Source: Albimonas pacifica (GTDB taxonomy: Bacteria; Pseudomonadota; Alphaproteobacteria; Rhodobacterales; Rhodobacteraceae). Taken from it: a stretch of 64,000 bases of DNA. Positions 11,068-46,136 of this stretch are shown piece after piece (positions within the stretch are counted from its first letter, which is position 1; the number at the start of each line of letters is the position of its first letter). The stretch spans positions 558,001 through 622,000 of the forward strand of contig NZ_FOQH01000002.1 of assembly GCF_900113695.1 (NCBI RefSeq), in the 5' to 3' direction. A model generated the notes under the pieces. The model saw only the letters and a program-made list of their open reading frames with translations. It was not told where the DNA came from and made no database searches. The translations under genes and the position numbers were made by a program.

Positions 11068-11255
11068 GCGTCGGGCGCGCGCGATACGGGGCGCATGTCG
11101 GTCCAGACCCGGTCGATATGGGCGAGGCACGCCTCGCGCCCGCCGCGGAACCCCTCGGGCGCCCAGCCCCAGGGCAGGGGGCGCCAGGCGGGCCAGATCG
11201 AGTGGCGGCCGTCCTCGCTGATCGCCACGGCGTAGTCGTCCTCGTCGTCGGTCAT
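11064..11255 (-). CDS. MbtH-like NRPS accessory protein
   Basis: A 63-residue protein with the MbtH pattern: an acidic start, SIWPAWRPLPWGW, then a central GW..EGF.GGREACL segment and VWTDMRP at the C-terminus, including the conserved tryptophans. MbtH proteins bind adenylation domains and improve their folding or activity. The adenylation domains of this locus (570-3836, 13611-18083, 26019-30233, 30239-36226) are the likely partners. It starts 15 bp after the aminotransferase stop and overlaps the next gene by 4 bases. No other MbtH gene was seen in the window. Confidence 0.95.
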   Translation of the reverse strand: MTDDEDDYAVAISEDGRHSIWPAWRPLPWGWAPEGFRGGREACLAHIDRVWTDMRPVSRAPDA

Positions 11256-12745: not shown

Positions 12746-13614
12746 TCGGCGGCCATCCGGCGCGGGAGGGCGGGGCGAGCGCGGCACACGAAGCAAGCGG
12801 CGTCGTCGGCGCCGACCTCGCCGCGGCCTGCGAGCGTCTCGAGCGACACGTCGAAGCCCACCGCCTCGAGCCGGGCTGCGACGCCGTCGAGCGGGTGGCC
12901 GTGCACCGGGAAATCCATCGCGCGGTGCGCCCAGTCGGGATGGCGGGCGGCGAACGCCTCCAGCCGGCGCAGGCGGAGGCGGCGGGCGAGGGGGCGGCGC
13001 AGCAGGGCGCGGGTCAGCCCCCCGGCTGGGGCGGGCGCGCCCTGGGGCCGGCGGAACAGGTCGACGCGGAAGGCGCCCTCGGCCCGCTCGGGGGCGTAGC
13101 GGGGCGTGATGCTCCAGGCATGGTCGGCGGCGATCTCGCCGGCGGCCGTGCGGCCTTGCCAGTGCTTCGCCATCTGCGCGGGGTGGTTGATGTCGAAGAC
13201 GAAGAGCCCGCCGTCCTCCAGCGCGGCATGGACCGCGCGGAACACCCGCTCCAGTTCGTCGAGATCGCGGATGTGGTTGAGGGAGGCGCTGGCGCAGACG
13301 GCCCCGGCGAAGGGGCTTTCATAATGAAAGTCGCGGGCGTCTCCGTGGCGCAGCTCCGCCCCCGGCGCGTTGCGGGCCGCCAGCCGCAGCATGTCGGCCG
13401 AGAGGTCCAGGCCCGAGACCGCGAACCCCCGCGCCAGCATCGGCGCCATCATCCGCCCGCTGCCGCAGCACAGGTCCAGCACCCGCGCCCCCGCCGGCAG
13501 GCGGTCGAGCAGCCGACGCTCCAGGAACCCCATCTTGAGGGCGCTGTAGGCGGGCCCCAGCGTGCGGTCGTAGAGCTCCGCCCAGGCGTCGTAGTCGCTA
13601 AGCGCTCGGGTCAT
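12742..13614 (-). CDS. Class I SAM-dependent methyltransferase
   Basis: A 290-residue methyltransferase. Motif I is VLDLCCGSGRMM near residue 45, followed by SGLDLSADML (motif II acidic residue) and LNHIRDLDELERVF. The fold is like small-molecule N-, O- or C-methyltransferases; which atom is methylated cannot be told. It lies between the reductase-terminated NRPS and the aminotransferase, joined to both by 4-base ATGA overlaps, so it most likely tailors the siderophore or one of its building blocks. The ATG at 13614 is chosen from the overlap and the start of the conserved region (YDAWAELYD). Confidence 0.88.
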   Translation of the reverse strand: MTRALSDYDAWAELYDRTLGPAYSALKMGFLERRLLDRLPAGARVLDLCCGSGRMMAPMLARGFAVSGLDLSADMLRLAARNAPGAELRHGDARDFHYESPFAGAVCASASLNHIRDLDELERVFRAVHAALEDGGLFVFDINHPAQMAKHWQGRTAAGEIAADHAWSITPRYAPERAEGAFRVDLFRRPQGAPAPAGGLTRALLRRPLARRLRLRRLEAFAARHPDWAHRAMDFPVHGHPLDGVAARLEAVGFDVSLETLAGRGEVGADDAACFVCRARPALPRRMAAE

Positions 13615-16600
13615 CGCGCGGCCTCCTGAAGGTCGGGGACGCCGTTCGCCGCGAGGCAGGCGCGCACGTAGCGGCGCAGCAGGGCCTGGTCCAGGGGCGG
13701 CTCGGGCAGGTGGGGATCGAGGGCGGCGCGGGTCCGCGCGCAGGCCGGCGAGGGGCCGTTCCCGAAGCCCTCGCCGGGGCCCAGGGCCGCCAGCCGGTGC
13801 AGCGGGTGGTCCGGCTCGGCCCGCGCGATGCGGGCCATGTGGGCGCGCCACTCGGCCGGCGCGAGGCGGCGGATCGGGCGGCCCTCGGCGGCGCAGGCCT
13901 CGAACAGGCGCTCGGTGGAGACGGGGGTGGAATGGGCCAGGTGGAAGACCCGGCCCCGGTTCTCCGGATCGGCCGCCAGATGCAGGATGGCGCGGGCCGC
14001 GTGGTCCACCGGCAGCAGGCTCATCCGCGCCTCCCCCGCAGGGGCCAGGCCCGAGGCGAGGTAGCCCCGCAGCCGCAGCCCCAGGATGTCGGCCGGGTTG
14101 AAGGCGCCGGTGCGCGAGTGGCCCGAGATCGCCCCCAGCCGGTAAATGGCGACCGCGAGCCCCCGCGCGCCCGCCTCCGCCGCCAGCCGCTCGGCGACCC
14201 ATTTCGTCAGGTTGTAGCCGCCGCCCGGCGGGGGCCGGCCGGCGGCCGCCTCGATCTCCGCCGCCGCGCCGACGGCGCTGAGCGTGGAGACGTGGTGGAA
14301 GGCGGCCCCCGTCTCCGCCGCCAGGCGCAGGAGGGCGCGGGTGCCCTCGACATTGGGGCCCCGCAGGGCGCGGTAGGGGCGGATGTGGTGGACCTCCGCC
14401 CCGCAATGCAGGATCGCGGCGCAGGCGGCGGCGCGGGCGAGATCCGGGGTCGAAAGGCCCAGGCTCGGCGCCCCGAGATCGCCCGTGACCGTGGCGACCC
14501 GCGCCTCCATCCCGGGGCGCAGCAGCCCGTGAGCCTGAAGCGCTGCGAGGATCGGCCCGGCCCCGCCGCGGCGCGTGAGGCACAGGACCTCGCGCACAGG
14601 GTCCTCCAGCAGCTCCGCCAGCAGGTGCACGCCCACGAAGCCGGTGGCGCCGGTCAGCAGCACCGGGCCCGGCAGGCCGGCGCGCAGCGGCGCCCCGGCG
14701 GCAGGGCGGATAGCAGGGTCGAGGGCGAGATCCTCGCGCCAGGGCTCGGCGCCGGGGCCTGGGGCGGTCTCGCCTTCGATGCGGCGGGCGATGGCGGCGA
14801 CGGTGGAACTCTCGAACAGGTCGCGCAGCCGGGGGGCGGCGCCGCCGGAGGCCTCGATCGCCGCGACCAGGCGGGTGGCGAGCAGCGAGTCGCCGCCCAG
14901 GTCGAAGAAGTCGTCCTCCGCCCCCGGGTCCGCCACGCCGAGCAGGTCGGAGAAGAGCGCGGCCACCGTCCGTTCCGCCTCGCCCCGGGGCGGGCGGCCG
15001 CGGCGGGCGCGGGGCTCGGGCGCGGGCAGGGCGCGCAGGTCCAGCTTGCCGGTCGGCGACAGCGGCAGGCGGTCGAGGCGCACCAGCGCGTCGGGGATCA
15101 TGTGGCGCGGCAGGCGGGCGAGGAGGTGGGCGCGCAGCGACTCCTCCGGCCTGCCCTCTGCGACCAGGTAGGCGACCAGCCGGGTGCGCCCGTCGACCTC
15201 GCGCGGGACCACGGCGGCGGCCTCGACGGCGGGGTGGCTTTCGCAGGCGCGGGCGATCTCCGCGGGCTCGATGCGGTGGCCGCGCAGCTTGATCTGGTCG
15301 TCGAGCCGCCCCAGCAGCCGGATCGAGCCGTCGCGCAGCCGCACCGCCCGGTCGCCGGTGCGATAGAGCCGCGCCCCCGGGGCCCCCCAGGGATCGGGCA
15401 CGAACACCGCCGCCGTGGCCCCCGGCCGCCCGCGGTAGCCGCGCGCGAGGCCCAGCCCCGCCACGCACAGCTCCCCCGGCGCGCCCGGCGGCAGCAGCCC
15501 CTGCTGCGCGTCCAGCACATGCAGCCGCTTGTTCGCCGGCGCCTGCAGCACCGGGTCAGGCGCCTCGGCCGTCAGCGGGACCATCGAGGCGTTCACCGTG
15601 CACTCGGTCGGGCCGTAGGCGTTGATGAAGCGCCGCCCGGCGCTCCAGCGTTCGACCAGCTCGCGCGAGGGCGCCTCGCCGCCGACCAGCACCAGGCGAA
15701 GGTCGGGCAGGTCCGTCTCCGGCAGGCTGGCCAGCGCCGAGGGGGTGATGGTCAGATGCGTCGCCCGCCGCTCGCGCAGGGTGCGGGCGAAGGCGGGGCC
15801 CGCGGGCAGGTCGCGCGCCGGCGCCAGCAGCAACGTGGCGCCCGCGCCGAGGCTCATCACCAGGTCGGGGATCGAGGCGTCGAAGGAGAAGCTGAAGAAG
15901 CTCATCACCCGGTCGCCCGGCCCCGTCCCGCACATCGCGATCTTGTCGCGCGCGAGGTTCACCAGCCCCGCATGCGGAACCTCGACCCCCTTCGGCCGCC
16001 CGGTCGAGCCGGAGGTGTAGATCAGGTAGGCGAGGTCCTGCGGGTCGGCCCCCGCGGCGGGCGGCGTCTCCGCCCCCTCCGGCCAGCCGAGATCGAGGTC
16101 GATGCGCTCGGCCGCCCCCGGCAGGGCGATGTCGGAGGCGGTCAGCACCAGGCGCGCGCCGGAATCCGACAGCATCCACGCCAGCCGCTCCGCCGGATAG
16201 GCGGGGTCGAGCGGCAGGTAGGCCGCCCCCGCCTTCAGCACCGCGAGCCACGCCGCGACCATGTCCGCGCCGCGATCCAGCGCGATGCCCACCACCGCGT
16301 CCGGCCCGATCCCCAGCGCCCGCAGCCGATGCGCCAGGCGGTTGGCGCGGGCGTCGAGGGCGGCGTAGCTCTCGGCGCGCGTCTCGCCCCCGGCCTGCAC
16401 CTCCACGGCGGGGGCGTCGGGGGTCTTCGCGGCCCAGGCCTCGAACAGGGCGGGGAAGCGCTCGGCGGGGTCGATCTCGCGCGCGGCGTCGTTCCACTCC
16501 ACCAGCTCGCGGTGGATCTCCTCTGGCGAGAGCATGTCGAGCAGCGCCACAGGGCGGTCGGGCGCCTCGGCGGCGGAGGTCAGCAGGCGCTGGAGGTGGT

Positions 16601-18083
16601 CGGCGAAGGCGGCCACGGTCTCGGGCCGGAACAGGTCGCGGCAATAGTCGATATGGCCGGTCACGCCCCCGGGCCCGTCCACGAGGTCGAGCGAGAGGTC
16701 GTGGCGCGCGGGCCCCGGCGGCAGGGGCCGGCGGCGCAGGGTCAGACCGGGCAGGGTCCAGGCCTCGCGCGGGGCGCGGTCGAGCTGGAATTTCAGCTGG
16801 AACAGGGGGCTGGCGCCGGGATCGCGGGGGCGCTGGAAGGCCTCGGCCAGGCGCTCGAAGGGGACGTGGCGATGCTCGGTCGCGTCGAGCAGGTCGTCGC
16901 GCACCCGGGCGAGATTGGCGGCGAAGCCCTGCGCCGGAGAGACCTGGCTGCGCAGCGGCAGCGGGTTGACGAAGAGGCCGATCAGCCGCTCCAGCTCCGG
17001 CCGGCCGCGGGTCGAGGCGGGGGCGCCCACGATCAGGTCCCGCTCCCCGGTCCAGCGATGGGTCAGCGCCAGCACCCCCGTCAGCAGCACGGCGAACAGC
17101 GAGGCGCCCTGCGCCGCCCCCAGCGCGCGCAGCCGCTCGACCAGCGGCGCGGGCAGGGCCAGCGGCAGGCGCGCGGCCGCGAGGCTCTGCACCGGCGGGC
17201 GCGGCAAGTCGGCGGGCAGGCGGGTGACGGGGAGATCGGCGAGCCGCTCTTGCCAGAACGCCATGTCCGCGGCCTCGGCGGCCCGGCGCGCCTGCGACAG
17301 GGACCAGGCGGCGTGATCGCCGTATTGCACCGGCAGGGGGGGCAGGTCCGGGGCCTCGGCCGCCCCGATCTCGGCGGCGTAGAAGCGCGAGACCTCGTCC
17401 ATCAGGATCTCGATCGAGCCGCCGTCGGCGGCGATGTGGTGCAGCGTGACCAGGATCAGCGTGCGACCCTCGCCCAGGGGGGCGAGGCAGAGGCGGATCG
17501 GGGGATCGGCTGCCAGGTCGAAGGGGCGCGCGGCCTCCTCGCGGATCAGCGCCTCGGGGTCGGCGGGCGTGGCTCGGCGCAGGGGGATGCGCGGCTCGGG
17601 GTCGATGCGCTGGCGGGGGACGCCGCCGGCGTCCTCGATGCGCAGGCGCAGGGTCTCGTGGCGGGCGGCGACGCGGGACAGGGCGGCCAGCAGCGCGGCC
17701 TCGTCCAGCGCGCCCTCGGCCTCGATGGCGAAGGGGATGTGGTGGGCGGCCTCGGGCTGCATCCGCTCCAGCGCCCACAGCCTCGCCTGCGCCGCGGTCA
17801 GGGGCGGGGCGGCGGCGCCGAGCGCGGGGATCGGCGAATCGGGCCGCGGCGCGGAGGCGGCGCGGTCGAGAAAGGCCAGGATCTCGGGCTTGCGGGCCCG
17901 GATCTCGGCGCCCAGGGGGCCGGCCAGCAGCTCCGACGGGCCGGTGCAGCGCAGGCGGCCGTCGACGACCGCAACGCGGATGCCGTGCTGGAAAAGGCGG
18001 GCGAGGAAGCCCTCCGCATCGGGCGCTCCGCGGAAGGCGGATTCGGCCTGCGAAGGGGCGAATGACGTCCAGGGGCTCGGCAT
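13611..18083 (-). CDS. NRPS, TubC-like docking-C-A-T-thioester reductase
   Basis: A 1490-residue protein. Residues about 20-75 resemble a TubC N-terminal docking domain (FLARLFQHGIRVAVVDGRL, then ARKPEILAFLDRA). C domain with HHIAADGGS near 217; A domain with TSGSTGRPKG near 694, INAYGPTE, YRTGD and PTGKLD; T domain with LGGDSLLA near 1061; reductase domain from about 1140 with the NADPH loop TGATGFVGVHLL and the YxxxK pair in GGYNLTKW near 1291. The specificity code reads D-A-P-T-L-G-A-V-N, for which I know no assignment. A terminal R domain releases the chain as an aldehyde, or an alcohol after a second reduction. It is the first gene of the leftward operon although its domains suggest the last step. 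Confidence 0.93.
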   Translation of the reverse strand: MPSPWTSFAPSQAESAFRGAPDAEGFLARLFQHGIRVAVVDGRLRCTGPSELLAGPLGAEIRARKPEILAFLDRAASAPRPDSPIPALGAAAPPLTAAQARLWALERMQPEAAHHIPFAIEAEGALDEAALLAALSRVAARHETLRLRIEDAGGVPRQRIDPEPRIPLRRATPADPEALIREEAARPFDLAADPPIRLCLAPLGEGRTLILVTLHHIAADGGSIEILMDEVSRFYAAEIGAAEAPDLPPLPVQYGDHAAWSLSQARRAAEAADMAFWQERLADLPVTRLPADLPRPPVQSLAAARLPLALPAPLVERLRALGAAQGASLFAVLLTGVLALTHRWTGERDLIVGAPASTRGRPELERLIGLFVNPLPLRSQVSPAQGFAANLARVRDDLLDATEHRHVPFERLAEAFQRPRDPGASPLFQLKFQLDRAPREAWTLPGLTLRRRPLPPGPARHDLSLDLVDGPGGVTGHIDYCRDLFRPETVAAFADHLQRLLTSAAEAPDRPVALLDMLSPEEIHRELVEWNDAAREIDPAERFPALFEAWAAKTPDAPAVEVQAGGETRAESYAALDARANRLAHRLRALGIGPDAVVGIALDRGADMVAAWLAVLKAGAAYLPLDPAYPAERLAWMLSDSGARLVLTASDIALPGAAERIDLDLGWPEGAETPPAAGADPQDLAYLIYTSGSTGRPKGVEVPHAGLVNLARDKIAMCGTGPGDRVMSFFSFSFDASIPDLVMSLGAGATLLLAPARDLPAGPAFARTLRERRATHLTITPSALASLPETDLPDLRLVLVGGEAPSRELVERWSAGRRFINAYGPTECTVNASMVPLTAEAPDPVLQAPANKRLHVLDAQQGLLPPGAPGELCVAGLGLARGYRGRPGATAAVFVPDPWGAPGARLYRTGDRAVRLRDGSIRLLGRLDDQIKLRGHRIEPAEIARACESHPAVEAAAVVPREVDGRTRLVAYLVAEGRPEESLRAHLLARLPRHMIPDALVRLDRLPLSPTGKLDLRALPAPEPRARRGRPPRGEAERTVAALFSDLLGVADPGAEDDFFDLGGDSLLATRLVAAIEASGGAAPRLRDLFESSTVAAIARRIEGETAPGPGAEPWREDLALDPAIRPAAGAPLRAGLPGPVLLTGATGFVGVHLLAELLEDPVREVLCLTRRGGAGPILAALQAHGLLRPGMEARVATVTGDLGAPSLGLSTPDLARAAACAAILHCGAEVHHIRPYRALRGPNVEGTRALLRLAAETGAAFHHVSTLSAVGAAAEIEAAAGRPPPGGGYNLTKWVAERLAAEAGARGLAVAIYRLGAISGHSRTGAFNPADILGLRLRGYLASGLAPAGEARMSLLPVDHAARAILHLAADPENRGRVFHLAHSTPVSTERLFEACAAEGRPIRRLAPAEWRAHMARIARAEPDHPLHRLAALGPGEGFGNGPSPACARTRAALDPHLPEPPLDQALLRRYVRACLAANGVPDLQEAAR

Positions 18084-18273: not shown

Positions 18274-20511
18274 ATGCCTGCGTCCGCCGTCCCCGCTGTT
18301 GCGTCCAACCCAAGTCCCTGCGCCGCCGACCCTTTCCGGAGCATCCTGGCGCATCTCGACGACCGCGCCGCGGGCATGGGCGCGGTGGAGGCCTTCCGCT
18401 TCCACGGCGACGAATCGCGCGACGAGCCCGAGGCGTTCACGAGCTGGACCTGGGCCGGGCTGCACGCCCGCGTCGCCGGCGTGGCGGCGGAGCTGCGCGC
18501 CTGCGGCGCCATCGCGCGGGGCGACCGGGTGCTGGTGGCCTTCCCGGCGGGGCTCGCCTTCATCGCGGCCTTCCTGGGCTGCCTCGCCGCCGGCGCCGTG
18601 CCCACCCCCGTGCCCCCGCCGCGCCGGCGCGAGCGCCTCAGCCGCTGGGCCCATATCGCCCGCGATTCGGGCGCCGCGGCCCTGCTCTGCGCGCCGGAGC
18701 TGCGCGACCGTCTCGGCGAGGCGGTGGCCGAGGCGGGCGTCGCGCACATCCTGCTGTCGGAAGCGGCCGATCCCGCCCGGCCGGCCCCTGAGCCGGGCGC
18801 GGCCTGGGACCAGCCGGGGCCCGGGGACCTCGCCTTCCTGCAATACACCTCCGGCTCCACCGGGGCGCCGAAGGGGGTGATGATCACCCACGGGATGCTC
18901 TCGGCGAACCTCGAGCAGATCCGCCACGCCTTCCGCTTCCGTCCCTCGGACCGGATCGCGGGCTGGCTGCCGCATTACCACGACATGGGCCTGATCGGCG
19001 GCATCCTCACGCCGGTGCGCCTGGGCGTGCCCAACGCGATGATGAGCCCGGCGGCCTTCCTGCGCGACCCGATCCGCTACCTGGAGCTCGCCTCCCGCTC
19101 CGGCGCCACCCTGATCGGCGGCCCGAACTTCGGCTACGAGCACTGCCTGCGCCATGCCTCGCCCGAGGCGCTGGCGCGGGTGGACCTATCGGGCCTGCGC
19201 CTCGCCTTCTCCGGCGCCGAGGCGATCCGCGCCGAGACCCTGCGCCGGTTCGCGCAGACCTTCGCCCCGCGGGGCTTCAGGCCCGAGCTGTGGGTCGGCT
19301 GCTACGGGCTGGCCGAGGCGACGCTCTGCGTCTCCGTCACCCCGCCCGACGGCGCGGGCGCGCGGGCGCTGGCGCTGGACGCCGAGGCGCTCGCCGCCCA
19401 CCGCATCGCCCCCGGCCACGGCGCCGAACTGGTCGAGAGCGGGGCGGTCGCGCCGGGCATCGAGCTCGCCATCGTCGACCCTGCGTCGCGGACCCGCCTC
19501 CCCCCCGATGCGGTCGGCGAAATCTGGCTGCGGGGCGCTTCGGTGGCGCGGGGCTGCTGGGGGCGCGAGGATGCCGAGGGGACCTTCGACCAGCGCCTCG
19601 ACGGACAGGGCGGCTGGCTGCGCACCGGGGACCTGGGCGCGCGGGTCGACGGCCGGCTCTATGTCGCCGGGCGGCTGAAGGAGCTGATCGTGGTCCGCGG
19701 CCGCAACCTCCACCCCCAGGACCTGGAGGCGACGGCGACCGCCGCCCACCCCGACCTGCTGCCCGGCCGCGCCGCCGCCTTCGCGCTGGACGCCGGCGGC
19801 GACGGCGACTTCGCGCTGGCCTGCGAGCTGCACCGCAGCGCCTGCCGCGCGCCCCGCTCGGCCGAGATCTTCGCCGCCCTGCGCCGGGCGCTGGCCGATC
19901 GCCACGGGGTGCTGCCCGCGCGGCTCGTGCTGCTGCGCCCAGGCGCGCTGCCGGCGACCCCCAGCGGCAAGATCCAGCGCTTCGCGGTGCGCGACGGCCT
20001 CGCCCCCGGCGGCTGGCTGACCCCGCTCGCCGAGCACGCCCGCGCGGCGCCGCAGGACCCGCAGGCGGCCCCTCCGGGCGCCCTCGCCCAGGCCCTGCGC
20101 GCGGCCCCGCCCGCGGTGCGCCGGGCCCGCCTGCTGGCGCATCTGCGCGCCGCGCTGGCCCGGGCGACGGGCGACGACGCGGCGATCGCCGAGGACGTGG
20201 GCCTGTTCGATCTCGGCCTCGATTCCGCCGGCGGCGTGGCGCTGGTGGCGGGGCTGGAGCGGGACCTCGACCTTGCGCTCGACGCGACCCTGATCTACGA
20301 GCACGCCACGCTCGCCACGCTGGGCGACCACCTGTTGGGCCGCCTGTTTCCGCCCGACGCGCCCCCCTCCGGCGCCGGTCCCGGCCAGTCAGCCCACGCC
20401 CCCCTTGCCAGCGAAAACCGGGCCCCCCAGGGCGCCCGAGACGTTCCCGCCAGCGATGACGACGACGAGGCCATGCGCGCGCTCGAGGCGCTGCTGGCTT
20501 CCGATCCCTGA
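18274..20511 (+). CDS. Fatty acyl-AMP ligase (FAAL) fused to ACP
   Basis: A 745-residue loading protein. Residues about 20-580 are a fatty acyl-AMP ligase: YTSGSTGAPKGVM near 190, the FAAL-typical GWLPHYHDMGLIGG, and CYGLAEATL. FAALs activate a free fatty acid as acyl-AMP and load it on a carrier; here the carrier is in cis (GLDSAGG, serine near 650). A 50-residue Pro/Ala linker and acidic tail (ASDDDDEAMRALEALLAS) follow, probably docking to the next PKS. The ATG at 18274 is chosen because GAGGAG lies 11 bp upstream and homology begins just after it; an in-frame GTG at 18262 is too close to that site. This is the first rightward gene and implies an acylated, possibly amphiphilic, siderophore. 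Confidence 0.94.
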   Translation: MPASAVPAVASNPSPCAADPFRSILAHLDDRAAGMGAVEAFRFHGDESRDEPEAFTSWTWAGLHARVAGVAAELRACGAIARGDRVLVAFPAGLAFIAAFLGCLAAGAVPTPVPPPRRRERLSRWAHIARDSGAAALLCAPELRDRLGEAVAEAGVAHILLSEAADPARPAPEPGAAWDQPGPGDLAFLQYTSGSTGAPKGVMITHGMLSANLEQIRHAFRFRPSDRIAGWLPHYHDMGLIGGILTPVRLGVPNAMMSPAAFLRDPIRYLELASRSGATLIGGPNFGYEHCLRHASPEALARVDLSGLRLAFSGAEAIRAETLRRFAQTFAPRGFRPELWVGCYGLAEATLCVSVTPPDGAGARALALDAEALAAHRIAPGHGAELVESGAVAPGIELAIVDPASRTRLPPDAVGEIWLRGASVARGCWGREDAEGTFDQRLDGQGGWLRTGDLGARVDGRLYVAGRLKELIVVRGRNLHPQDLEATATAAHPDLLPGRAAAFALDAGGDGDFALACELHRSACRAPRSAEIFAALRRALADRHGVLPARLVLLRPGALPATPSGKIQRFAVRDGLAPGGWLTPLAEHARAAPQDPQAAPPGALAQALRAAPPAVRRARLLAHLRAALARATGDDAAIAEDVGLFDLGLDSAGGVALVAGLERDLDLALDATLIYEHATLATLGDHLLGRLFPPDAPPSGAGPGQSAHAPLASENRAPQGARDVPASDDDDEAMRALEALLASDP

Positions 20512-20527
20512 CCGGGAGAGGGTTCCG

Positions 20528-23500
20528 ATGACCTCCACCAGCCAGCCCCACGGGGAGGGCGAGGCGCGGATGCGCGATCTGCTCGATCGCGCCGCCGCCC
20601 GCCTCGCCCGCCACCAGGCCGACCGCCACGAGGGGATCGCCGTCGTCGGCCTCGCCGCCCGCTTCCCCGGCGCCCCGGACCTCGACGCGTTCTGGGACCT
20701 GCTGGACCGCGGCGAGAGCGGGCTGCAGCGCGTGGACGCCGCCGATCTCGCCGCCGCGGGGCTTCCGGCCGCGCTGCTCGACGATCCCGACTACGTGCCC
20801 GTCTGGGGCGGCCCGCCCGAGGCGGACGGCTTCGACGCCGATCTCTTCGGCTACGCCCCGCGCGAGGCGGAGCTGCTGGACCCCCAGCAGCGGATGGTCC
20901 TGGAATGCGCCTGGCACGCGCTGGAGGACGCCGGCCGCGATCCGGCCCGCGAGCCCGGCCGCGTCGGCGTCTGGGCCGGCGCGTCGCTGTCGAGCCACCT
21001 GCTGCGCGCCGCCGGCCGGGCCGGCCGGATGGAGGCGGGGCTCGCCAACATCGCCGGCATGGTCGCGGCCCGCGTCTCCTGGCGCTTCGGCCTGACGGGG
21101 CCGAGCGTGGGGGTGCAGACCACCTGCTCGACCGCGCTCACCGCGATCCACATGGCCGTGCAGGCCCTTCGCCGGCGCGAGTGCGACCTGGCGCTGGCCG
21201 CCGCCGCCGCCGTCGACGCCCCCCGCCCCGAGGGCTACGCCCACCAGGCCGGGGGCGTCGCCGCCCCCGACGGCGTCTGCCGGCCCTTCGACGCCGCCGC
21301 CGCCGGCACGGTCTTCGCCAACGGCTGCGGCGTGGTGGTGCTGCGCCGGCTGAGCGACGCGCTCGCTGACGGGGACCCGATCCGCGGCGTGATCCTGGGC
21401 TCGGCCATCGGCAGCGACGGGGCCGACAAGGTGGGGCTGACGGCGCCCAGCGTCTCGGGCCAGGCGGCGGTGCTGTCGGCGGCGCTGGCCGACGCGCGGC
21501 TGGGGGCCGAGGCCCTCGACTGCATCGAGGCCCACGGCGCCGGCACCGCCCTGGGCGACCCGATCGAGGTCGCCGCCCTCACCCGCGCCCATGGCGAGGC
21601 GCTGGAGACGGCCGGGCGCCGCTGCACCCTGGGCTCGGTGAAGGGCAACGTCGGCCATCTCGACGCCGCCGCCGGCATGGCGGGGCTCGCGAAACTGCTG
21701 CTGGCTTTCAGCCACGACCGCTTCCCCAGCACGGCGAACTACGCGCAGCCCAACCCGAAATGCGCCTTCGGCCCCTTCGAGGTCTCGGCCGAGGCCCGCC
21801 CCTGGCCCCGCGACCCCCACCGCCCGCGGCGCGCCGGCCTGTCGTCGTTCGGCATGGGCGGCGCCAACGCCCACCTGGTGATCGAGGAGCCGCCGCGCCT
21901 CCCCGCCGCCCCGCAGACGGAGGGCGCCCAGCTCCTCCCCCTCTCCGCCCGCACGCCCGAGGCGCTGGCGCGGCTGGGCGAGGATCTGGCCGCGGCGCTG
22001 GAGGCGGGCGAGGCCCCGCTCGCCGACGTGGCCTTCACCCTCCAGGTCGGCCGCCGCCCGCTGCCCGAGCGGCGCGCCGTCGTCGCCGCCACCCGCGAGG
22101 CCGCCATCGCCGCCCTGCGCGCGCCGGCCGAGCCGCTGCGCCCCCTCTCCGGCGCCCCCGAGCCAGTCTTCGTCTTCGCCGGCCAGGGCGCCCAGCGCGC
22201 CGGCATGGCCCGCGACCTGCGCGCCGCCGAGCCGGCGTTCCGCGAGACGCTGGACGCCTGCCTCGACCTCGCCCCCGCCGAGCTGGTCCTCCCGGCCCTC
22301 ATGCTGGACCCCGCCGAGCCCCGGCGGATCCACGAGACCCGGGCCGCCCAGCCCGCGCTCTTCGCCCTCGAGCTGGCGCTGGCGCGGATGTGGATCGCCC
22401 GCGGCGTCGTCCCCACGGCGCTGATCGGGCACAGCGTGGGCGAGCTCGCCGCCGCCTGCCTTGCGGGCGTGATGGACCTGGAAGGCGGGATGCGCCTCGC
22501 CGTCGCCCGGGGCGCGCTGATGCAGGCCTGCCCGCGGGGCGCGATGCTGTCGGCGATGATCTCGGAGGCGGAGGCGGAGGGCGCCTTGCCCGAGGGCGTG
22601 GAGCTCGCCGCCGTCAACGGCCCGCGCAGCGTGACCCTCGCCGGGCCCGAGGCGGCCATCGCCGAGCTCGCCGCGCGGCTCGAGCGCAGCGGAGTCGGTT
22701 GTCGGCCCCTGCAGACCTCCCACGCCTTCCACAGCGCCGCGATGGAGCCAGCCATGGCGCCCTTCCGCGAGGCGGTGGCGGGCGTGGCGCTGCGCCCTCC
22801 CGAAATCCCCATCGTCTCGACCCTCACCGGCGACTGGCTGACGGCGGCCGAGGCGACGGACCCCGACCGCTGGTCCCGCCAGCTCCGCCGCCCGGTGCGC
22901 TACGGCGAGGCCGTGGCCCGCCTGCGCGAATATTCGCGCCCTCTGCTGCTGGAGATCGGGCCGGGCGCGGGGCTGATCCGCCTCGCCCGCCAGGCGCTGG
23001 CCGGCGACGACGGGCCCGAGAGCCGCGGCGTCGCCTCGCTGCCCGAGGCCGGCGCCCGCGACGGCGCGGCCGAGGTCCTGCGCGCGACCGGCGAGCTCTG
23101 GGCCGCAGGGGCGCCCATCGACTGGCCCGCCCTGCACCCCGCCCCCCGCCGCCGCGTGCCGCTGCCCGGCTACCCGTTCCAGCGGCGCCCCTTCTGGCTG
23201 CCCCCCGCCTCCGCCGCGCCCGAGGATCCGCGGGCCGCGACCGACCCCGCCCGCTGGACCCACCAGCCCAGCTGGCGGCGCCTGCCCGCCGCCGCCCCCG
23301 CCGCCCCGCCCCGCCGTCTGCTGCTGGGCGCCGCGGCGCTGGACCCGCGCCTCGACCGACCGCTGGCGGCCGAGCGGCTGGACCTCCCCCCCGAGGCCGA
23401 CTCCACAACCCTGCGCGAGGCGCTGGAGGCGGCCGCCCCCGAAGAAATCCTCTGCGCCTGGGGCCTGGACGAGACCGCGGGCGAGGCGCCGGGCGCGCTG

Positions 23501-24931
23501 CTCCGCGGGGCCGTGGCGCTGGGCCGGGCGCTGGCGGGCTCGACCCTGCGCCCGCGCCTGACCCTGGTCGGCGCCGGCATGCAGGACGTCGCCGGGCGCG
23601 AGCCGCTGGACCCCGGCGCGGCCATGGCCGCGGGCCTGGTGCCGGCGCTGGCGCAGGAGCTGCCGGGCCTCGTCTGCCGCAGCCTCGACCTGGACCTCTC
23701 CGAGCCGGCGGGCCCGATCCGCGGCCTCGCCGACGCGCTGAACGCCCCCTTCGCGCCCGCCGACGCGCTGGCCCTGCGCGGCGGCCGGCTGTGGCGGCGG
23801 GAGTGGGAGGCCGCGCCCTCGCCCGAGCCCGAGACGCTGCCCGCCCTTCATGGCCGCGCCGCGGTGATCGTGGGCGACCTCGCCTCCGGCCTGACCCTGG
23901 CCTTCGCCCGCGCGGCCCGCGAGGCCGGGGCCTGCGGCGTCGCGCTGCTGGGCGCGGGCGCGCAGACCGGGCAGGGGGAGGGCCGCCTCGCCGACGGTCT
24001 GCGCGCCCTGGCCGCGCCCGGCTTCACGCTCCATGCCGAGGCGGGCGACCCGACCGACGCCGCCTGGCTGGGCCGGGCGCTGGATGCGGCCGAGGCGCGG
24101 CTGGGCCCGCTCGCCGGCGTCTTCCACACCGGCGCCATGGGCGACGCCAGCCTCATGGCGCTGGCCGAGGCCGAGCCCGCGGCGCTGACCCGCCTGGTCG
24201 AGCCGCGCCTGCGCGGCGTGGCGGCCCTGCGCCGGGCTCTGGCGGGCCGCGACCTCGCCTTCTGCCTGGTGCAGTCGTCGCTGTCGGTGCTGGCGGGGGG
24301 CGCCGGCCTCGGCCCCTACGCCGCCGCCAACGCGGGGATCGAGGCGATCGCCGCGCTGGCGGGGCGCGAGGGCCCGACCGCCTGGCAGGCCGTGCAATGG
24401 GACGCGGCCGAGACCGGCTCGCTGGCCGGCCACGCCGGCCTCTCGACCCTGCGGATCCTCTCCGAGGCCGAGGTCGCACGGCTGACCCGCGCCATCCTCG
24501 CCCGGCCGGGCGCGAGCCTGGTCGCGGTCACCCCCGGCCCCCTCGCGCGCCGGCTCTCCGAAGCCGACCGCCCGCCGGCCGAGCCCCCGGCGCCCCGCCG
24601 CCGGACCCGCCCCCTCGTCCCCCCGCGCGACGATACGGAGCGGGCGGTGGTGGCGGTGATGTCGCAGATGCTCGGCGTGCCGGAGATCGGGGTCGAGGAC
24701 GATTTCTTCGAGCTCGGCGGCCACTCGCTCCTCGCCATCCAGATCGTCGACCGTCTGCGCCGCGACTTCGGCGTCGAGCTGCCGGTGCGCGCCCTGCTGC
24801 AGGAGCAGCCCTCCGCCGCCGGCATCGCCGCCGCCCTGCGCGAGGCTCGCGCCAAGGCCGACGAGGACGGCCGCGCGCTGGCGCGGATGCTCGACGAGAT
24901 CGAGACCAGCCCCGCCGACGGCGCGGCCTGA
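20528..24931 (+). CDS. Type I PKS module, KS-AT-(degenerate KR)-ACP
   Basis: A 1467-residue module that should extend the fatty acyl starter by one malonyl unit. KS: TTCSTAL near 199, EAHGAGT near 334, KGNVGH near 375. AT: GHSVGE near 635 and HAFHS near 732, the malonyl type. KR-like region about 1108-1290: the dinucleotide loop reads VGDLASGL and the catalytic Lys segment reads EPRLRG (Lys to Arg), although the Tyr and Asn of PYAAAN remain; I infer that it does not reduce. ACP: LGGHSLLA near 1400. The N-terminus (MRDLLDRAAARLARH) is a short docking helix. GGGAG precedes the ATG 16 bp after the FAAL stop. The next gene is an LLM monooxygenase, which fits oxidation of a retained beta-keto intermediate. 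Confidence 0.94.
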   Translation: MTSTSQPHGEGEARMRDLLDRAAARLARHQADRHEGIAVVGLAARFPGAPDLDAFWDLLDRGESGLQRVDAADLAAAGLPAALLDDPDYVPVWGGPPEADGFDADLFGYAPREAELLDPQQRMVLECAWHALEDAGRDPAREPGRVGVWAGASLSSHLLRAAGRAGRMEAGLANIAGMVAARVSWRFGLTGPSVGVQTTCSTALTAIHMAVQALRRRECDLALAAAAAVDAPRPEGYAHQAGGVAAPDGVCRPFDAAAAGTVFANGCGVVVLRRLSDALADGDPIRGVILGSAIGSDGADKVGLTAPSVSGQAAVLSAALADARLGAEALDCIEAHGAGTALGDPIEVAALTRAHGEALETAGRRCTLGSVKGNVGHLDAAAGMAGLAKLLLAFSHDRFPSTANYAQPNPKCAFGPFEVSAEARPWPRDPHRPRRAGLSSFGMGGANAHLVIEEPPRLPAAPQTEGAQLLPLSARTPEALARLGEDLAAALEAGEAPLADVAFTLQVGRRPLPERRAVVAATREAAIAALRAPAEPLRPLSGAPEPVFVFAGQGAQRAGMARDLRAAEPAFRETLDACLDLAPAELVLPALMLDPAEPRRIHETRAAQPALFALELALARMWIARGVVPTALIGHSVGELAAACLAGVMDLEGGMRLAVARGALMQACPRGAMLSAMISEAEAEGALPEGVELAAVNGPRSVTLAGPEAAIAELAARLERSGVGCRPLQTSHAFHSAAMEPAMAPFREAVAGVALRPPEIPIVSTLTGDWLTAAEATDPDRWSRQLRRPVRYGEAVARLREYSRPLLLEIGPGAGLIRLARQALAGDDGPESRGVASLPEAGARDGAAEVLRATGELWAAGAPIDWPALHPAPRRRVPLPGYPFQRRPFWLPPASAAPEDPRAATDPARWTHQPSWRRLPAAAPAAPPRRLLLGAAALDPRLDRPLAAERLDLPPEADSTTLREALEAAAPEEILCAWGLDETAGEAPGALLRGAVALGRALAGSTLRPRLTLVGAGMQDVAGREPLDPGAAMAAGLVPALAQELPGLVCRSLDLDLSEPAGPIRGLADALNAPFAPADALALRGGRLWRREWEAAPSPEPETLPALHGRAAVIVGDLASGLTLAFARAAREAGACGVALLGAGAQTGQGEGRLADGLRALAAPGFTLHAEAGDPTDAAWLGRALDAAEARLGPLAGVFHTGAMGDASLMALAEAEPAALTRLVEPRLRGVAALRRALAGRDLAFCLVQSSLSVLAGGAGLGPYAAANAGIEAIAALAGREGPTAWQAVQWDAAETGSLAGHAGLSTLRILSEAEVARLTRAILARPGASLVAVTPGPLARRLSEADRPPAEPPAPRRRTRPLVPPRDDTERAVVAVMSQMLGVPEIGVEDDFFELGGHSLLAIQIVDRLRRDFGVELPVRALLQEQPSAAGIAAALREARAKADEDGRALARMLDEIETSPADGAA

Positions 24932-24951
24932 CCAACCCCCCGGGAGGATCC

Positions 24952-26016
24952 ATGCAGTTCAGCCTGTTCTACTTCGACGGCGACGGCTCTCGCCGGAACC
25001 CCGACGCCTATCGCCTGCTGCTCGACAGCGCCCGCTTCGCCGACGAGAACGGCTTCCAGGCGCTGTGGGTGCCCGAGCGGCATTTCCACGCCTTCGGCGG
25101 CCTCTACCCCAACCCTGCGGTGATCCACGCCGCCCTGGCGATGGCGACGAAGAACGTCCAGCTCCGCTCCGGCAGCGTGGTCGCGCCGCTGCATCACCCG
25201 GTCAGGGTGGCCGAGGACTGGGCGGTGGTCGACAACCTCTCCGGCGGGCGCGCCGGCGTCGCCATCGCCTCGGGCTGGACGATGGAGGAGTTCGTCCTCT
25301 CGCGCGAGCCGCACGGCTTCCGCCGCACCCTGATGTGGCGCAGCTACGACGAGATCACCCGCCTGCTCGCCGGCGAGGCGGTGGTCTTCGAGGACGCCGA
25401 CGGCAACGAGGTCGAGGCGAAGACCCTGCCGCGCCCCCTGCAGCCGCGCATCCCCTTCTGGGTCGCCGGCCAGTCCACCGAGACCTTCGTCGAGGCCGGC
25501 CGGCGCGGGATCAACGTGCTGTGCTCGCTGCTGGGCGAGACGCTCGACGACGTGGCCCCCAAGATCCGCGCCTACCGCGAGGCGCTGGACCGCGCCGGCC
25601 ACGATCCCGACGCCGGGCGCGTGGCGATGATGGTGCACACGTTCCTCGCCGAGGACCCCGAGACCGCGCGGGCCAGGGTGATCGGGCCGTTCTCCGACTA
25701 CCTGCGCACCCACTACCACCTGCTCGAGAGCCTGGCGAAGAGCATGAAGCTGGACGTGCGGCTGTCGGATTTCTCGCAGGACGACCTCGACAGCCTGCTC
25801 CGCTTCGGGGTCGAGGGCTTCATGAACGGCCGCGCCCTGATCGGCTCCCCCGAGAGCTGCCGCCCGATGGTCGAGGCGCTGGCCGAGGCGGGCGTGGACG
25901 AGATCGCCAGCCTGATCGACTTCGTGCAGGACCGCGAGCTGGTGATGGGGGGCCTGCCGCATCTCGCGGAACTGGCGAAGGCCACCGCCGGCGTGCGGCG
26001 GCTGGAGGCGGTCTGA
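24952..26016 (+). CDS. Luciferase-like FMN monooxygenase of assembly-line type
   Basis: A 354-residue protein of the bacterial luciferase superfamily, opening FSLFYFDGDG with the conserved LWVPERHFHAFGG near residue 40, SGSVVAPLHHPVRVAEDWA and GIASGW-like AIASGWTMEEF. It fits the group named MupA/Atu3671 in databases, which occurs inside or beside PKS/NRPS proteins; from memory Atu3671 lies in an Agrobacterium siderophore locus. Such enzymes use FMNH2 and oxygen and are proposed to hydroxylate the carbon alpha to a carrier-bound acyl group; monooxygenase domains of this type are also paired with an aminotransferase domain in microginin synthetase. GGGAGG precedes the ATG. It lies directly between the PKS and an NRPS, so the substrate is probably the PKS-bound beta-keto thioester. 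Confidence 0.9.
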   Translation: MQFSLFYFDGDGSRRNPDAYRLLLDSARFADENGFQALWVPERHFHAFGGLYPNPAVIHAALAMATKNVQLRSGSVVAPLHHPVRVAEDWAVVDNLSGGRAGVAIASGWTMEEFVLSREPHGFRRTLMWRSYDEITRLLAGEAVVFEDADGNEVEAKTLPRPLQPRIPFWVAGQSTETFVEAGRRGINVLCSLLGETLDDVAPKIRAYREALDRAGHDPDAGRVAMMVHTFLAEDPETARARVIGPFSDYLRTHYHLLESLAKSMKLDVRLSDFSQDDLDSLLRFGVEGFMNGRALIGSPESCRPMVEALAEAGVDEIASLIDFVQDRELVMGGLPHLAELAKATAGVRRLEAV

Positions 26017-26018
26017 GC

Positions 26019-30233
<4,215 letters not shown>

Positions 30234-30238
30234 GGCCC

Positions 30239-33200
30239 ATGGACCCGATCCTGGACGTCTACGAGATGACCCCGATGCAGGCGGGGATGCTGTTCCAGTC
30301 GCTGCTCGACCCGCAGACGGGCGCCTATGTGCAGCAATACTGGGGCCGGCTCTCGGGCCCGCTGGACGAGGCCGCCTTCCGCGACGCCTGGGCCGCGGTG
30401 ATCGCCCGCCACGACCTGCTGCGCGCCGCCTGCCACTGGGAGGATCTCGACCGCCCCGCCTTCGCCATCCACGCCGAGGCGGAACCGGAGTGGACCTCGA
30501 TCGACCAACTCGACATGCCGCTCGAGGACTGGCTGGCGCAGGACCGGGCGCGGGGCTTCGACCTCTCGGCCGCGCCGCTGATGCGCTTCGCCCTGATCCG
30601 CACGGGCGAGGCCGAGCGGACCTTCGTGTGGACCTTCCACCACCTGCTGCTCGACGGCTGGTCGGGGGCGCTGCTGGTGCGCGAGATGCTGGCGATCCTC
30701 GCCGGAGAGGACCCCGGCCCCGCCCCCACCCCGTTCCGCGCCTTCGCCGACTGGCGCGCGGCCCAGGACCCGAACGCCGCCCGCGAGACCTGGACCGAGG
30801 CCCTGGCGGGGGCCGAACTGCCCACGCCGCTCGGCCTCGACCGATCCGGCGGCGCGCCGGGGCTTGCCGAGCATCGTTTCCGCCTGGGCCGCGAAACCAC
30901 CGCCGCGCTGGCTCGGACGGCGCGGGCGCAGCGACTGACGCTCGCCACGCTGATGCAGGGGGCCTGGGCGCTGCTGCTCTCGCGCCAGGCGGGGCAGGGG
31001 GACGTGACCTTCGGCTGCGTGCTCGGCGGCCGCCCGCCGGAGCTGCCGGGGGCCGAGCGCATGGTGGGCCTGTTCCTCGAGACCCTGCCGCTGCGTGTGC
31101 AGGTGGAGGACGAGCGCCCGCTCGCCGACTGGCTACGCGCCCTGCAGGAGACCCAGCGCGCGCAGGAGGTCGCCCCCCGCGCGGCCCCGGGCGAGATCCA
31201 GGGCTGGCTCGGCCTCGGCGCCACGCCGCTGTTCGAAAGCCTGCTGATCGTCGAGACCTATCCCGAGAGCATCGAGGCCGTCGCCCGCCGCGACGGCGCC
31301 GAGATCCGCCTCTCCGACACCGGCCTGCATGAGCGCACGGGCCTGCCCCTGACCCTCAAGGTCCTGCCGGGAGAGGACCTGGAGATCGTGCTCTGCGCCG
31401 AGACCTCGCGGATCCCCGCCGCCGTCCTGCCGGCGCTGGAGGCGCGCCTGCGCCGCACGCTGGAGGCTTTCGCCGAAGCTCCCTCCCGCCCCCTGGGCGA
31501 GATCGACGTGATCCCCCCCGCGGAGCACGCCCGCCTGGCCGCGCTGGGCCGGGGCCCGACGCCCCCCGCCCCGCCGCTGGCGCCCGAGGCCATCGCCGCC
31601 TCCGCCCGCGCCCGCGGCGCCGCGCCGGCGGTGGAGACGGCGGAGGGCGAGGTCCTGAGCCACGAAGCCCTCGACTCCCGCGCCGCCGTCCTCGCCGGCG
31701 GCCTTCGCGCCCGCGGCGTCGGGCCGGGCGACGTGGTGGCGGTCTGCATGGACCGAACCCCGGACCTGGTCGCCACGCTGCTCGCCGTCTGGCGTTGCGG
31801 GGCGGCCTACCTGCCGCTGGACCCGGTCTACCCGGCCGAGCGCATCGCCTGGGCGCTGGAGGACGCCGGCGCCCGCCTCGTGGTGGTCGACGCGACCGGC
31901 GAGGCGGCGCTGGGCCCGGCGACCGCCGCGCGTGCCGCGCGGATCGAGACGCTGGACGGCCCCGCCGCCCCTCCGGTCCCGGTCGGACCCGGGGACCTCG
32001 CCTACATCCTCTTCACCTCCGGAAGCACCGGGCGGCCCAAGGGCGTGCCGATCCCGCACGGGGCGCTGGCGAACTTCCTGGCCTCGATGCAGGTCGCGCC
32101 GGGTCTCGCGGCCTCCGACCGGCTGCTGGCGCTGACCACGGTCGCCTTCGACATCGCGGCGCTGGAGATCTTCGGCCCGCTCTGCGCCGGGGGGACGGCG
32201 GTGCTGGCGCCGGCGGGCGCGGGCATGGACGGGCGCCTGGTCGCCCGGCTGATCGAGGAGCGCGCCATAACCGCCGTTCAGGCCACCCCCGCCGGCTGGC
32301 GGGTGTTGCGCGACTCCGGCTGGCGGGGCTGCGCGGGGCTCAGGATCTTCTCGGGCGGCGAGGCGCTGGACGCGGGCCTCGCCCGCGACCTGCTGGGTCT
32401 GGGGGCGGAGCTCTGGAATCTCTACGGCCCCACCGAGACCACGATCTGGTCCGCCGCCCTGCGGCTGACCCCCGCCTTCCTCGCCGGCCCCAGGGCGCCC
32501 ATCGGCGGCCCGCTGGCGCACACCACGCTCAGCGTGCGCGACAACGCCGGCCGGCCGGTTCCCGAGGGCGCGACCGGAGAGCTGTGGATCGGCGGCGCCG
32601 GCCTCAGCCCCGGCTACCTCGGCCGGCCCGAGCTGACCGCCGAGCGCTTCGTGACGATCGACGGCGCCCGCCTCTACCGCACCGGCGACCGCGCCCGGAC
32701 CACCCCCGAGGGGACGATCGAGCTCTCCGGCCGGCTCGACGACCAGGTGAAGCTGCGCGGCTTCCGCATCGAGCTCGGCGAGATCGAGGCGGCGCTGGAG
32801 GCGCGCCCGGAGATTCTTCAGGCGGTGGCGATGGTCCAGGGCGAGGGCGCCGCGGCCCGCCTCGTCGCCTGGATCAGGACCGAGGGTCCTGCGCCCGCCC
32901 CCCGCACCCTGCGCGCGGCGCTCGCCGAACGCCTGCCGGCCTACATGATCCCCGCCGCCTTCGTGACGGTGGAGCGCTTCCCCCTGACCCCCAACGGCAA
33001 GGTCGACCGCAAGGCCCTGCCGGCGCCCGGGACGCAGCCGAAGGCGCCCGGGGCGACCGAGCCCCGCTCCCCCCGCGACGAGATCGTCGCCGGCATCTGG
33101 GCCGAGGCGCTGGAGGTCGCCCACGTCGCCCCCGAGGACGACTTCTTCGCGCTGGGCGGCCATTCGCTGCCGGCCCTGCGGGTGATCGGGGAGGTGCGGG

Positions 33201-36226: not shown

Positions 36227-36228
36227 GC

Positions 36229-42289: not shown

Positions 42290-42315
42290 GGCGGCGCTCC
42301 TGTGCGTGATGGGGA

Positions 42316-45823: not shown

Positions 45824-46136
45824 ATCAAGGCGTCCTTCTCGCAACAATCGATTGGGAGCGTCTTGCGTGCGATGGAGCTGGCCCCGGCGGACGGGATGGC
45901 GAGCGGCTGGACGCGGCCCGCCCTGTATCTGAGCAAAATGATCGGAAATCAATGGCGCCTGTCGTCCGATCGGACGCGCCGTCGCCCGAAGCGGCCGCGC
46001 CGGGCGATAAACCCCCCGCGAAACGCCTCTCGGGAAGCGGGGCGGCGCCGCCCGGACCGGACGGCGTCCGGAACCGCCGGGACGACCCGGCCCGTCGATG
46101 GGCCGCCGCGTCGCGAAGCCGGCGCGCGCGGCGGGC
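45824..46136. promoter_or_regulatory. Promoter region of the iron-uptake operon
   Basis: A gene-free stretch of 313 bp upstream of the receptor. On the minus strand TTGATT (45952-45947) and GATACA (45929-45924), 17 bp apart, form a plausible sigma-70 promoter. The dyad TGATCGGAAATCA (45939-45951) overlaps its -35 box and spacer, and could bind an iron-responsive repressor. A perfect 14-bp palindrome, CGTCCGATCGGACG, lies at 45963-45976. The rest is GC-rich without a recognisable signal. Confidence 0.5.

Follow-up and report, generated by a model that had tools for sequence, protein, structure and literature searches.

What iron-binding group would be made by an assembly line in which a polyketide synthase (PKS) with an altered ketoreductase (KR) adjoins a luciferase-like monooxygenase (LLM)? 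The question is raised by a 64,000-nucleotide stretch of Albimonas pacifica DNA (contig NZ_FOQH01000002.1, positions 558,001 to 622,000; hereafter the window, whose own coordinates are used throughout), where three consecutive plus-strand genes at 18274-26016 encode a fatty acyl-AMP ligase (FAAL) with an acyl carrier protein (ACP), a PKS module (PKS1) and an LLM. An earlier note, made from the sequence alone, had taken these genes for the head of an acylated siderophore in which a dead KR leaves an alpha-hydroxy-beta-keto group as the final chelating unit. Our analysis indicates that the KR is a conserved altered form and that the head probably belongs to a fabrubactin-type (fbn) cluster, in which the alpha-hydroxy-beta-keto species would be an intermediate towards an alpha-hydroxycarboxylate. 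This kind of cluster is already known from fabrubactin; what is new here is a signature in the KR that goes with the FbnE clade of monooxygenases. The head comprises the following features, in which KS and AT denote ketosynthase and acyltransferase domains and residue numbers of PKS1 are counted from base 20525.

18274..20511, plus strand: FAAL-ACP (Pfam; solved relatives; 44-46% identical to Agrobacterium orthologues), predicted to activate a fatty acid and load it onto its own ACP
20528..24931, plus strand: PKS1, KS-AT(malonyl)-altered KR-ACP (Pfam; active-site motifs; 43-44% identical to Agrobacterium orthologues)
23846..24424, plus strand: catalytic subdomain of the altered KR of PKS1, with loop VGDLASGLT at 23870-23896, Gln1250, Ser1252 and Tyr1265 kept, and Lys1228 replaced by Arg
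24952..26016, plus strand: FbnE-type stand-alone FMN LLM (TIGR04020; 70-74% identical to Agrobacterium proteins; tree; PuwE structure 6ket)

The coordinates and domains that had been given for the three genes agree with Pfam, NCBIfam and motif inspection, by which PKS1 is a malonyl-type KS-AT-KR-ACP module. The FAAL-ACP frame opens with ATG at 18274, ends at 20511 and matches AMP-binding (6.8e-69) and PP-binding (1.8e-11) in Pfam; its ligase part matches the solved fatty-acid-AMP ligases FadD32, FadD23, FadD28 and 3pbk (“Fatty Acyl-Adenylate Ligase”), its top solved matches, 7r7e-g, are titled merely “Polyketide synthase”, and its scores against the NCBIfam FAAL models lie under their cut-offs. 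PKS1 matches KS (5e-63 for the N-terminal and 1.6e-32 for the C-terminal part), AT (5.7e-50), KR (1.1e-17) and PP-binding (1e-15), with KS Cys201, both KS His motifs, AT motifs GHSVGE and HAFH (the latter of which we take as malonyl-specific) and the ACP Ser all present. The LLM starts at 24952 (MQFSLFYF...), matches Bac_luciferase at 1.7e-53 and, at 477.4 bits against a curated cut-off of 244.45, belongs to the MupA/Atu3671 family of NCBIfam (TIGR04020). Among solved structures it is closest to PuwE (6ket, E 6.4e-95), and it is the one close LLM in its genome, where the next-best protein scores 57 bits.

The KR of PKS1 carries VGDLASGLT in place of TGGxGxxG, a loop one residue longer than that of each of five solved KRs aligned to the profile, none of which has Gln at the Gln1250 position. 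A second PKS of the window (PKS2, at 3833-8251) reads AGDVSAGLG at the same place, and the Lys-Ser-Tyr-Asn tetrad of canonical KRs appears as Arg-Ser-Tyr-Asn in PKS1 and Cys-Ser-Tyr-His in PKS2. These domains were aligned as part of a set made up of the KRs of the PKS lying directly upstream of the LLM in 18 FbnE-clade loci and 9 other loci, together with 10 PKS2 modules (membership assigned by us from search matches) and 10 other modules; the split in the loop was seen first, groups were formed from it and the LLM tree described below was built afterwards. Left out were L028, a near copy of L026, and L058, a PKS frame with no detected KR (L numbers are our handles for loci); no upstream PKS was obtained for L040, L043 and L049, and L131, L139 and L144 held no KR in the aligned stretch. 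Among the second modules, L127, L128, L129 and L143 had already been counted as PKS1 modules and L140 as a comparison module, whereas L130, L138 and L142, additional modules from cyanobacteria, stayed ungrouped (eight-residue loops IGGLEGMG, TGGLGNIG and TGGLGAIG). Close pairs were kept (L026/L039, 87% identical over the module; L042/L052, 84%; PKS2 of L026/L124, 90%).

Among the 18 FbnE-clade KRs none contained TGGxGxxG and all had a nine-residue loop (the canonical one has eight), 17 of them fitting G[DEN]xxx[GS]x[GA] and the exception being the window's own VGDLASGLT, at its last letter. Ser, Tyr and a Gln before Ser-Ser were present in 18/18, Lys in 15/18 (Arg in 3) and Asn in 15/18. The PKS2 KRs were likewise canonical in 0/10 and nine-residue in 10/10, with 8/10 fitting the same pattern and Ser, Tyr and Gln in 10/10 each; Lys was found in 1/10 and Asn in 2/10. 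The nine-residue loop, the catalytic Ser and Tyr and the unusual Gln are therefore retained in 28/28 altered KR domains, and 8 of 192 columns are invariant across them, including Gln1250, Ser1252 and Tyr1265. The PKSs upstream of the LLM in the comparison loci (7 from the neighboring cyanobacterial clade and 2 actinobacterial) were canonical in 9/9 with Gln in 0/9, and the other modules were strictly canonical in 8/10 with the insertion or Gln in 0/10, so that Gln occupies the Gln1250 position in 0/19 comparison KRs. As an internal control, 7 other modules within FbnE-clade clusters (L027, L031, L045 and L047) showed the altered loop in 0/7 and were strictly canonical in 5/7, two modules of L031 reading AGGLGGIG and PGGVESIE.

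Two further candidate marks were set aside: Trp1287 is invariant in the 28 altered KRs yet present in 5/19 comparison KRs, and Lys loss does not serve as a mark of inactivity, Lys being retained in 15/18 KRs of this type beside an LLM. Against solved KRs, the PKS1 KR gave weak phmmer matches (best E 4e-08); for PKS2, whose Pfam KR match starts at profile position 55, all 48 phmmer matches to solved structures had their best stretches within the carrier portion of the query sequence and none in the KR. The loss of the NADPH loop claimed in the earlier note is thus borne out by the alignment, and the loss of the catalytic Lys holds for the window's PKS1 copy but not for this type of KR. Aligning the KR regions, as that note had advised, returned an altered loop and not simple breakage: read from its sequence, the window KR is a conserved altered form.

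An LLM tree was computed from the loci at hand (48 rows, of which 18 were labeled with the altered KR, 9 canonical and 21 unlabeled; midpoint root, short search). The KR labels require one change on this tree, and the association therefore reflects descent rather than repeated evidence. The 18 rows with the altered KR and the unlabeled cyanobacterial rows L040 and L043 form one group (SH-aLRT 99), the 7 cyanobacterial canonical rows and unlabeled L049 form an adjacent one (SH-aLRT 88), and the two actinobacterial rows lie elsewhere. The window LLM falls with Agrobacterium LLMs (SH-aLRT 100 for 8 rows). The nesting of proteobacterial rows within cyanobacterial ones is suggestive of horizontal transfer; the altered loop with Gln, Ser and Tyr is common to cyanobacteria, alphaproteobacteria and betaproteobacteria. 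In the betaproteobacterium Methyloversatilis thermotolerans (L048, L125, L143), an FbnE-clade LLM occurs with the altered KR, and some 32 kb separate PKS2 from PKS1. Within the neighboring clade, a Pseudanabaena plasmid (L032) carries the LLM and a canonical-KR PKS, with a salicylate synthase and TonB receptor encoded nearby, perhaps a siderophore locus with an alpha,beta-dihydroxy unit.

Furthermore, the altered KR of PKS1 is under purifying selection in the four close pairs examined. By a simple counting method applied to PKS1 pairs, the ratio of nonsynonymous to synonymous substitution rates (dN/dS) in the catalytic part of the KR was 0.10, 0.15, 0.20 and 0.22, beside 0.11-0.19 for AT and 0.04-0.14 for KS in the same pairs and 0.11-0.16 for the KR of three canonical pairs. 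Simple decay is accordingly disfavored for PKS1 by the invariant columns and by these ratios. Relative to KS, KR conservation was 0.70 in PKS1, 0.55 in PKS2 and 0.80 in canonical modules, indicating faster change of the altered KR. An AlphaFold2 model of the PKS1 KR, built from 22 sequences, was well folded (pLDDT 85.9, pTM 0.88), and its best fold matches were PKS KRs, the C2-type KR 3qp9 among them.

Taken together with the gene neighborhood described below, these results make it likely that the window holds an acylated siderophore cluster of the fabrubactin type with the following head chemistry. The FAAL would load a medium-chain fatty acid onto its own ACP and PKS1 would add malonate; the altered KR, predicted to be unable to bind NADPH in the usual way, would leave the beta-ketone in place; the FbnE-type LLM would oxygenate the ACP-bound beta-keto thioester at its alpha carbon; and the alpha-hydroxy-beta-keto species, left unreduced, would then rearrange into a chelating alpha-hydroxycarboxylate. 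A second alpha-hydroxycarboxylate probably comes from PKS2, whose KR is of the same altered kind, acting with the same monooxygenase, and the probable end of the chain is a Dmaq catechol derived from FbnL/M, a nonribosomal peptide synthetase (NRPS) of condensation, adenylation, thiolation and reductase domains (C-A-T-R), an aminotransferase and a methyltransferase. A “Favorskii-like rearrangement” is reportedly mentioned by Vinnik et al. (2021) in their abstract.

The fabrubactins are described with two alpha-hydroxycarboxylate chelators, both proposed as FbnE-made, and with FbnL/M making L-DOPA (excerpts of PMC12971057); a C10 acyl chain is described with in vitro data in a text that also names FbnG (excerpt of PMC11837247). 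MupA, of the mupirocin pathway, hydroxylates a beta-keto-ACP, takes no beta-hydroxy analogue as substrate and gives a labile product, alpha-hydroxy-beta-keto thioesters being unstable (excerpts of PMC10952193). Because of these fabrubactin chelators and MupA data, the alpha-hydroxy-beta-keto species is the likely intermediate and the alpha-hydroxycarboxylate the likely end, and two altered KR modules each in the window and in the Agrobacterium clusters L025 and L026 fit two such chelators; among the cyanobacterial clusters read, some, such as that of Gloeocapsa sp. PCC 7428, hold one altered KR module. The earlier view that the LLM, an Atu3671-family enzyme, serves the assembly line as an alpha-hydroxylase and is positioned to work on a beta-keto thioester that has escaped reduction gains support from the MupA precedent and TIGR04020, and the acylated siderophore head is supported as well, with siderophore uptake and export genes (Pfam) adjoining.

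MupA and OocM share with the window enzyme the alpha-hydroxylation of a beta-keto-ACP (excerpts of PMC10952193), and MupA gives TIGR04020 its name; in the MupA pathway, however, an active KR reduces the product, whereas the window KR is altered. PuwE belongs to the puwainaphycin pathway, likewise a FAAL-initiated route, to a lipopeptide with a 3-amino-2-hydroxy fatty acid (excerpt of PMC4219810), but there an aminotransferase acts on the chain, and the 6ket chain (362 aa) differs from the hybrid PuwE of the 2014 paper.

We take the whole cluster to span about 570-45952, an extent that the earlier note had missed along with the second altered-KR PKS. Outside the head it comprises the following features.

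570..3836, minus strand: NRPS C-A-T (Pfam; C domain 41-44% identical to the Agrobacterium minus-strand NRPS)
3833..8251, minus strand: PKS2, KS-AT(malonyl)-altered KR-ACP (Pfam; KR loop AGDVSAGLG; KR match at about 4391-4777)
8244..9977, minus strand: C-T didomain without an A domain (Pfam; 32-35% identical to the C-T protein of Agrobacterium clusters)
9974..10576, minus strand: small siderophore protein, FbnM-like candidate (57-58% identical to an Agrobacterium “siderophore biosynthesis protein”; neither Pfam nor NCBIfam match)
10573..11067, minus strand: small siderophore protein, FbnL-like candidate (35-42% identical to Agrobacterium; no Pfam match)
11064..11255, minus strand: MbtH-like protein (Pfam; Agrobacterium match)
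11270..12745, minus strand: class III-type aminotransferase (56-63% identical to Agrobacterium; NCBIfam transaminase/aminomutase models score under cut-off)
12742..13614, start approximate, minus strand: SAM methyltransferase (Pfam on 12742-13524; 44-45% identical to Agrobacterium), proposed for Dmaq N-methylation
13611..18083, minus strand: NRPS C-A-T-reductase with reductive release (Pfam; TIGR01746 thioester reductase; 46-50% identical to Agrobacterium), the proposed Dmaq precursor module
26016..30233, plus strand: NRPS C-A-T followed by a 335-aa C-terminal tail (Pfam; tail relatives in Paracoccus caeni and Pseudorhodobacter loci)
30236..36226, plus strand: NRPS C-A-T-C-A-T, second A degenerate (Pfam: one AMP-binding stretch, two C, two T)
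36223..37557, plus strand: MATE exporter (Pfam; syntenic in Agrobacterium clusters)
38501-39316, minus strand: iron-siderophore ABC importer, ATPase (Pfam)
39309-40319 and 40292-41317, minus strand: iron-siderophore ABC importer, permeases (Pfam)
41360-42316, minus strand: iron-siderophore ABC importer, binding protein (Pfam)
42316..43320, minus strand: FhuF-like ferric reductase (Pfam 23.6 bits, just under the cut-off of 25.2)
43331..45952, minus strand: TonB-dependent receptor (Pfam)

The names FbnL-like, for a putative subunit of the peroxidase that would convert Tyr to DOPA, and FbnM-like were given from the place and size of the Agrobacterium counterparts. The tail of the first plus-strand NRPS (29226-30230) has no Pfam match and has relatives in L035 and L036, and the degenerate second A domain of the other plus-strand NRPS, at 34631-35890, gave no AMP-binding match. 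Since this A domain is degenerate and the C-T protein has none, two T domains need another A domain for loading. The A-domain codes are, by code tables that we assume to apply, Gly-like in the plus-strand NRPSs and Ala-like at 570-3836, and no product formula was built on them. Past the receptor, a sulfotransferase-like protein (PF13469) is encoded at 47455-49176.

Fabrubactin biosynthesis of Agrobacterium, among the closest known systems, was represented in the comparison by plasmid (pAt) clusters NZ_CP118261.1, NZ_CP124965.1 and NZ_CP032919.1. All three carry, on one strand, an NRPS, a PKS, two small proteins, MbtH, an aminotransferase, a methyltransferase and an NRPS and, on the opposite strand, an AMP-ligase, a PKS, an LLM, an NRPS and a MATE protein, the same divergent order as in the window. 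Proteins of two of these clusters matched the window at corresponding places by tblastn (aminotransferase 56-63%, small proteins 57-58% and 42%, PKS2 47-48%, C-A-T-R 46-50%, PKS1 43-44%, FAAL 44-46%, methyltransferase 44-45%, MATE 47-49%), and the altered KR is found in both PKSs there as in the window. As in those clusters, the window has a FAAL start and a C-A-T-R protein with aminotransferase and methyltransferase, and its stand-alone FbnE-type monooxygenase adjoins PKS1. The gene content, the orthology to the Agrobacterium clusters and the altered KR signature with its conservation are directly observed. We infer that the pAt clusters are of the fabrubactin kind from PMC12971057, from the Atu3671 family name and from the siderophore genes atu3673 and atu3675, and that their LLM, the sole LLM gene annotated in those stretches, is FbnE. 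Both atu3673 and atu3675 are named as siderophore synthesis genes, which fits an Atu3671 siderophore locus (excerpt of PMC11975290).

In a plasmid collection (81 records matched, 60 of 81 listed), the LLM was 70-74% identical to Agrobacterium and Allorhizobium proteins (15 of the 81 records lie in the 60-80% band), 57%, 53% and 47% to those of Gloeocapsa, Gloeocapsopsis and Pseudanabaena, and 40-47% to the other records listed. A scan of genome contigs (the best 80 of 545 matches, rather than a full census) gave 83% for Paracoccus caeni (L035, L120) and Pseudorhodobacter aquimaris (L036, L121), whose loci, compared in part, carry the altered KR in both PKSs and relatives of the window's tail and degenerate A regions. 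Of 149 genomes from the window's family, a single one, the window's own, has the LLM at E <= 1e-120; 14 others among 61 relatives' genomes carry an LLM 43-53% identical in stop-free frames of 565-1662 aa, and the four of these placed in the tree all fall outside the FbnE clade.

The window also differs from the pAt clusters. Its C-T gene is flanked by PKS2 and the small proteins, whereas theirs follows the NRPSs; its plus-strand NRPSs contain the degenerate A domain and the unmatched tail, and protein identities are 35-74%. The plus-strand NRPS measures 1128 aa in A. tumefaciens and 2181 aa in A. vitis, whereas the window has a C-A-T protein with tail and a C-A-T-C-A-T protein; on the minus strand the window has one C-A-T protein of 1088 aa, where the A. 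tumefaciens counterparts measure 2399 and 2567 aa and the A. vitis one 2573 aa. An A. tumefaciens minus-strand NRPS (L029:10417-17616) contains a nitroreductase-type domain not found by Pfam in the scanned window proteins.

Several points weigh against a fabrubactin-type assignment. Module number and order differ from Agrobacterium, and the peptide part must therefore differ; the Agrobacterium Rrf2 regulators, aspartate decarboxylase and phosphopantetheinyl transferase have no window match at E 1e-8 (tblastn). Fabrubactin was isolated from A. fabrum C58, and the clusters compared here are those of the pAt plasmids, for whose genes the fbn names are our own assignment. FbnE making both chelators is worded as a proposal in the excerpts of PMC12971057, and the PKS2 KR, with Lys gone in 9/10 and Asn in 8/10, may be structural only. 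The product of the window cluster is itself a prediction from its genes.

Two other outcomes for the head were weighed. A final alpha-hydroxy-beta-keto chelating unit, with no rearrangement and the KR simply dead, agrees with the lost KR loop and with the formation of alpha-hydroxy-beta-keto thioesters by the MupA family (excerpts of PMC10952193). Such thioesters are nevertheless unstable according to the same source, the KR is conserved by its invariant columns and dN/dS, and fabrubactins, from genes presumed orthologous, are reported with alpha-hydroxycarboxylates (excerpts of PMC12971057); it was on these published chelators that we set this end product aside as the leading view, and we regard it as improbable and the earlier assignment as probably wrong. 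An alpha,beta-dihydroxy acyl head, as in MupA-like pathways with an active KR, would have a parallel in the neighboring LLM clade (for example in Pseudanabaena), where canonical KRs stand beside the LLM; with a window KR lacking the canonical NADPH loop, it is very unlikely.

Two accounts of the altered KR itself are compatible with a fabrubactin-type head. The simplest, a structural remnant kept solely for folding and dimerization of the module, has in our estimate slightly less than an even chance: it accommodates the well-folded PKS1 model, the change of Lys to Arg in 3/18 PKS1 and its loss in 9/10 PKS2 KRs, the faster change in PKS2 and the failure of the PKS2 KR to find a solved KR by phmmer, but not readily the same insertion with Gln, Ser and Tyr kept across cyanobacteria, alphaproteobacteria and betaproteobacteria. 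In the other account, a Gln-Ser-Tyr pocket would bind the LLM product and promote enolization, a 1,2-shift or epimerization without redox chemistry. The invariant Gln1250, Ser1252 and Tyr1265 (Gln being absent from the comparison KRs), the loop shared by all 28 domains and dN/dS values like those of AT and canonical KRs are consistent with this, as is the behavior of non-reducing KRs and NADPH-site mutants, which epimerize and lose much activity when Tyr or Ser is mutated (excerpts of PMC5331325). A structural or docking role would also produce purifying selection, however, conservation relative to KS is lower than in canonical modules, Lys and Asn are gone in most PKS2, and FbnE could do all the chemistry alone; a non-redox role in the rearrangement is possible, though we hold it to be rather unlikely. 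C2-type KRs (such as DEBS and PIKS KR3) offer a likeness in that they employ Tyr and Ser yet serve no redox function (excerpts of PMC5331325); the altered KR sequence is compatible with this non-reducing type, at the level of type rather than residue by residue for Gln1250 and the loop, and the window substrate would differ in bearing an alpha-hydroxyl rather than an alpha-methyl group. Equally tentative is our more specific proposal that the altered KR is a distinct functional non-redox subtype, marked by a nine-residue G-D-x3-G-x-G loop, Gln-Ser-Ser and Tyr, which would have arisen once with the FbnE clade and would work with its monooxygenase, catalyzing the 1,2-shift of the alpha-hydroxy-beta-keto-ACP that this enzyme makes to a branched alpha-hydroxycarboxylate.

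The pathway to these alpha-hydroxycarboxylates is, according to excerpts of PMC12971057, so far reported for fabrubactins only, and an FbnE profile was built there yet left out of antiSMASH. Beside the FbnE clade, the altered KR signature provides a second marker of such loci and a means to predict the number of such chelators, and it makes the question of backbone rearrangement testable, by comparing the monooxygenase by itself with the monooxygenase together with the altered KR. If this KR is catalytic, it would be a further non-redox use of a ketoreductase in assembly lines, and if it is a functional subtype, the count of altered KRs would serve as a sequence marker for the number of alpha-hydroxycarboxylates in this siderophore family.

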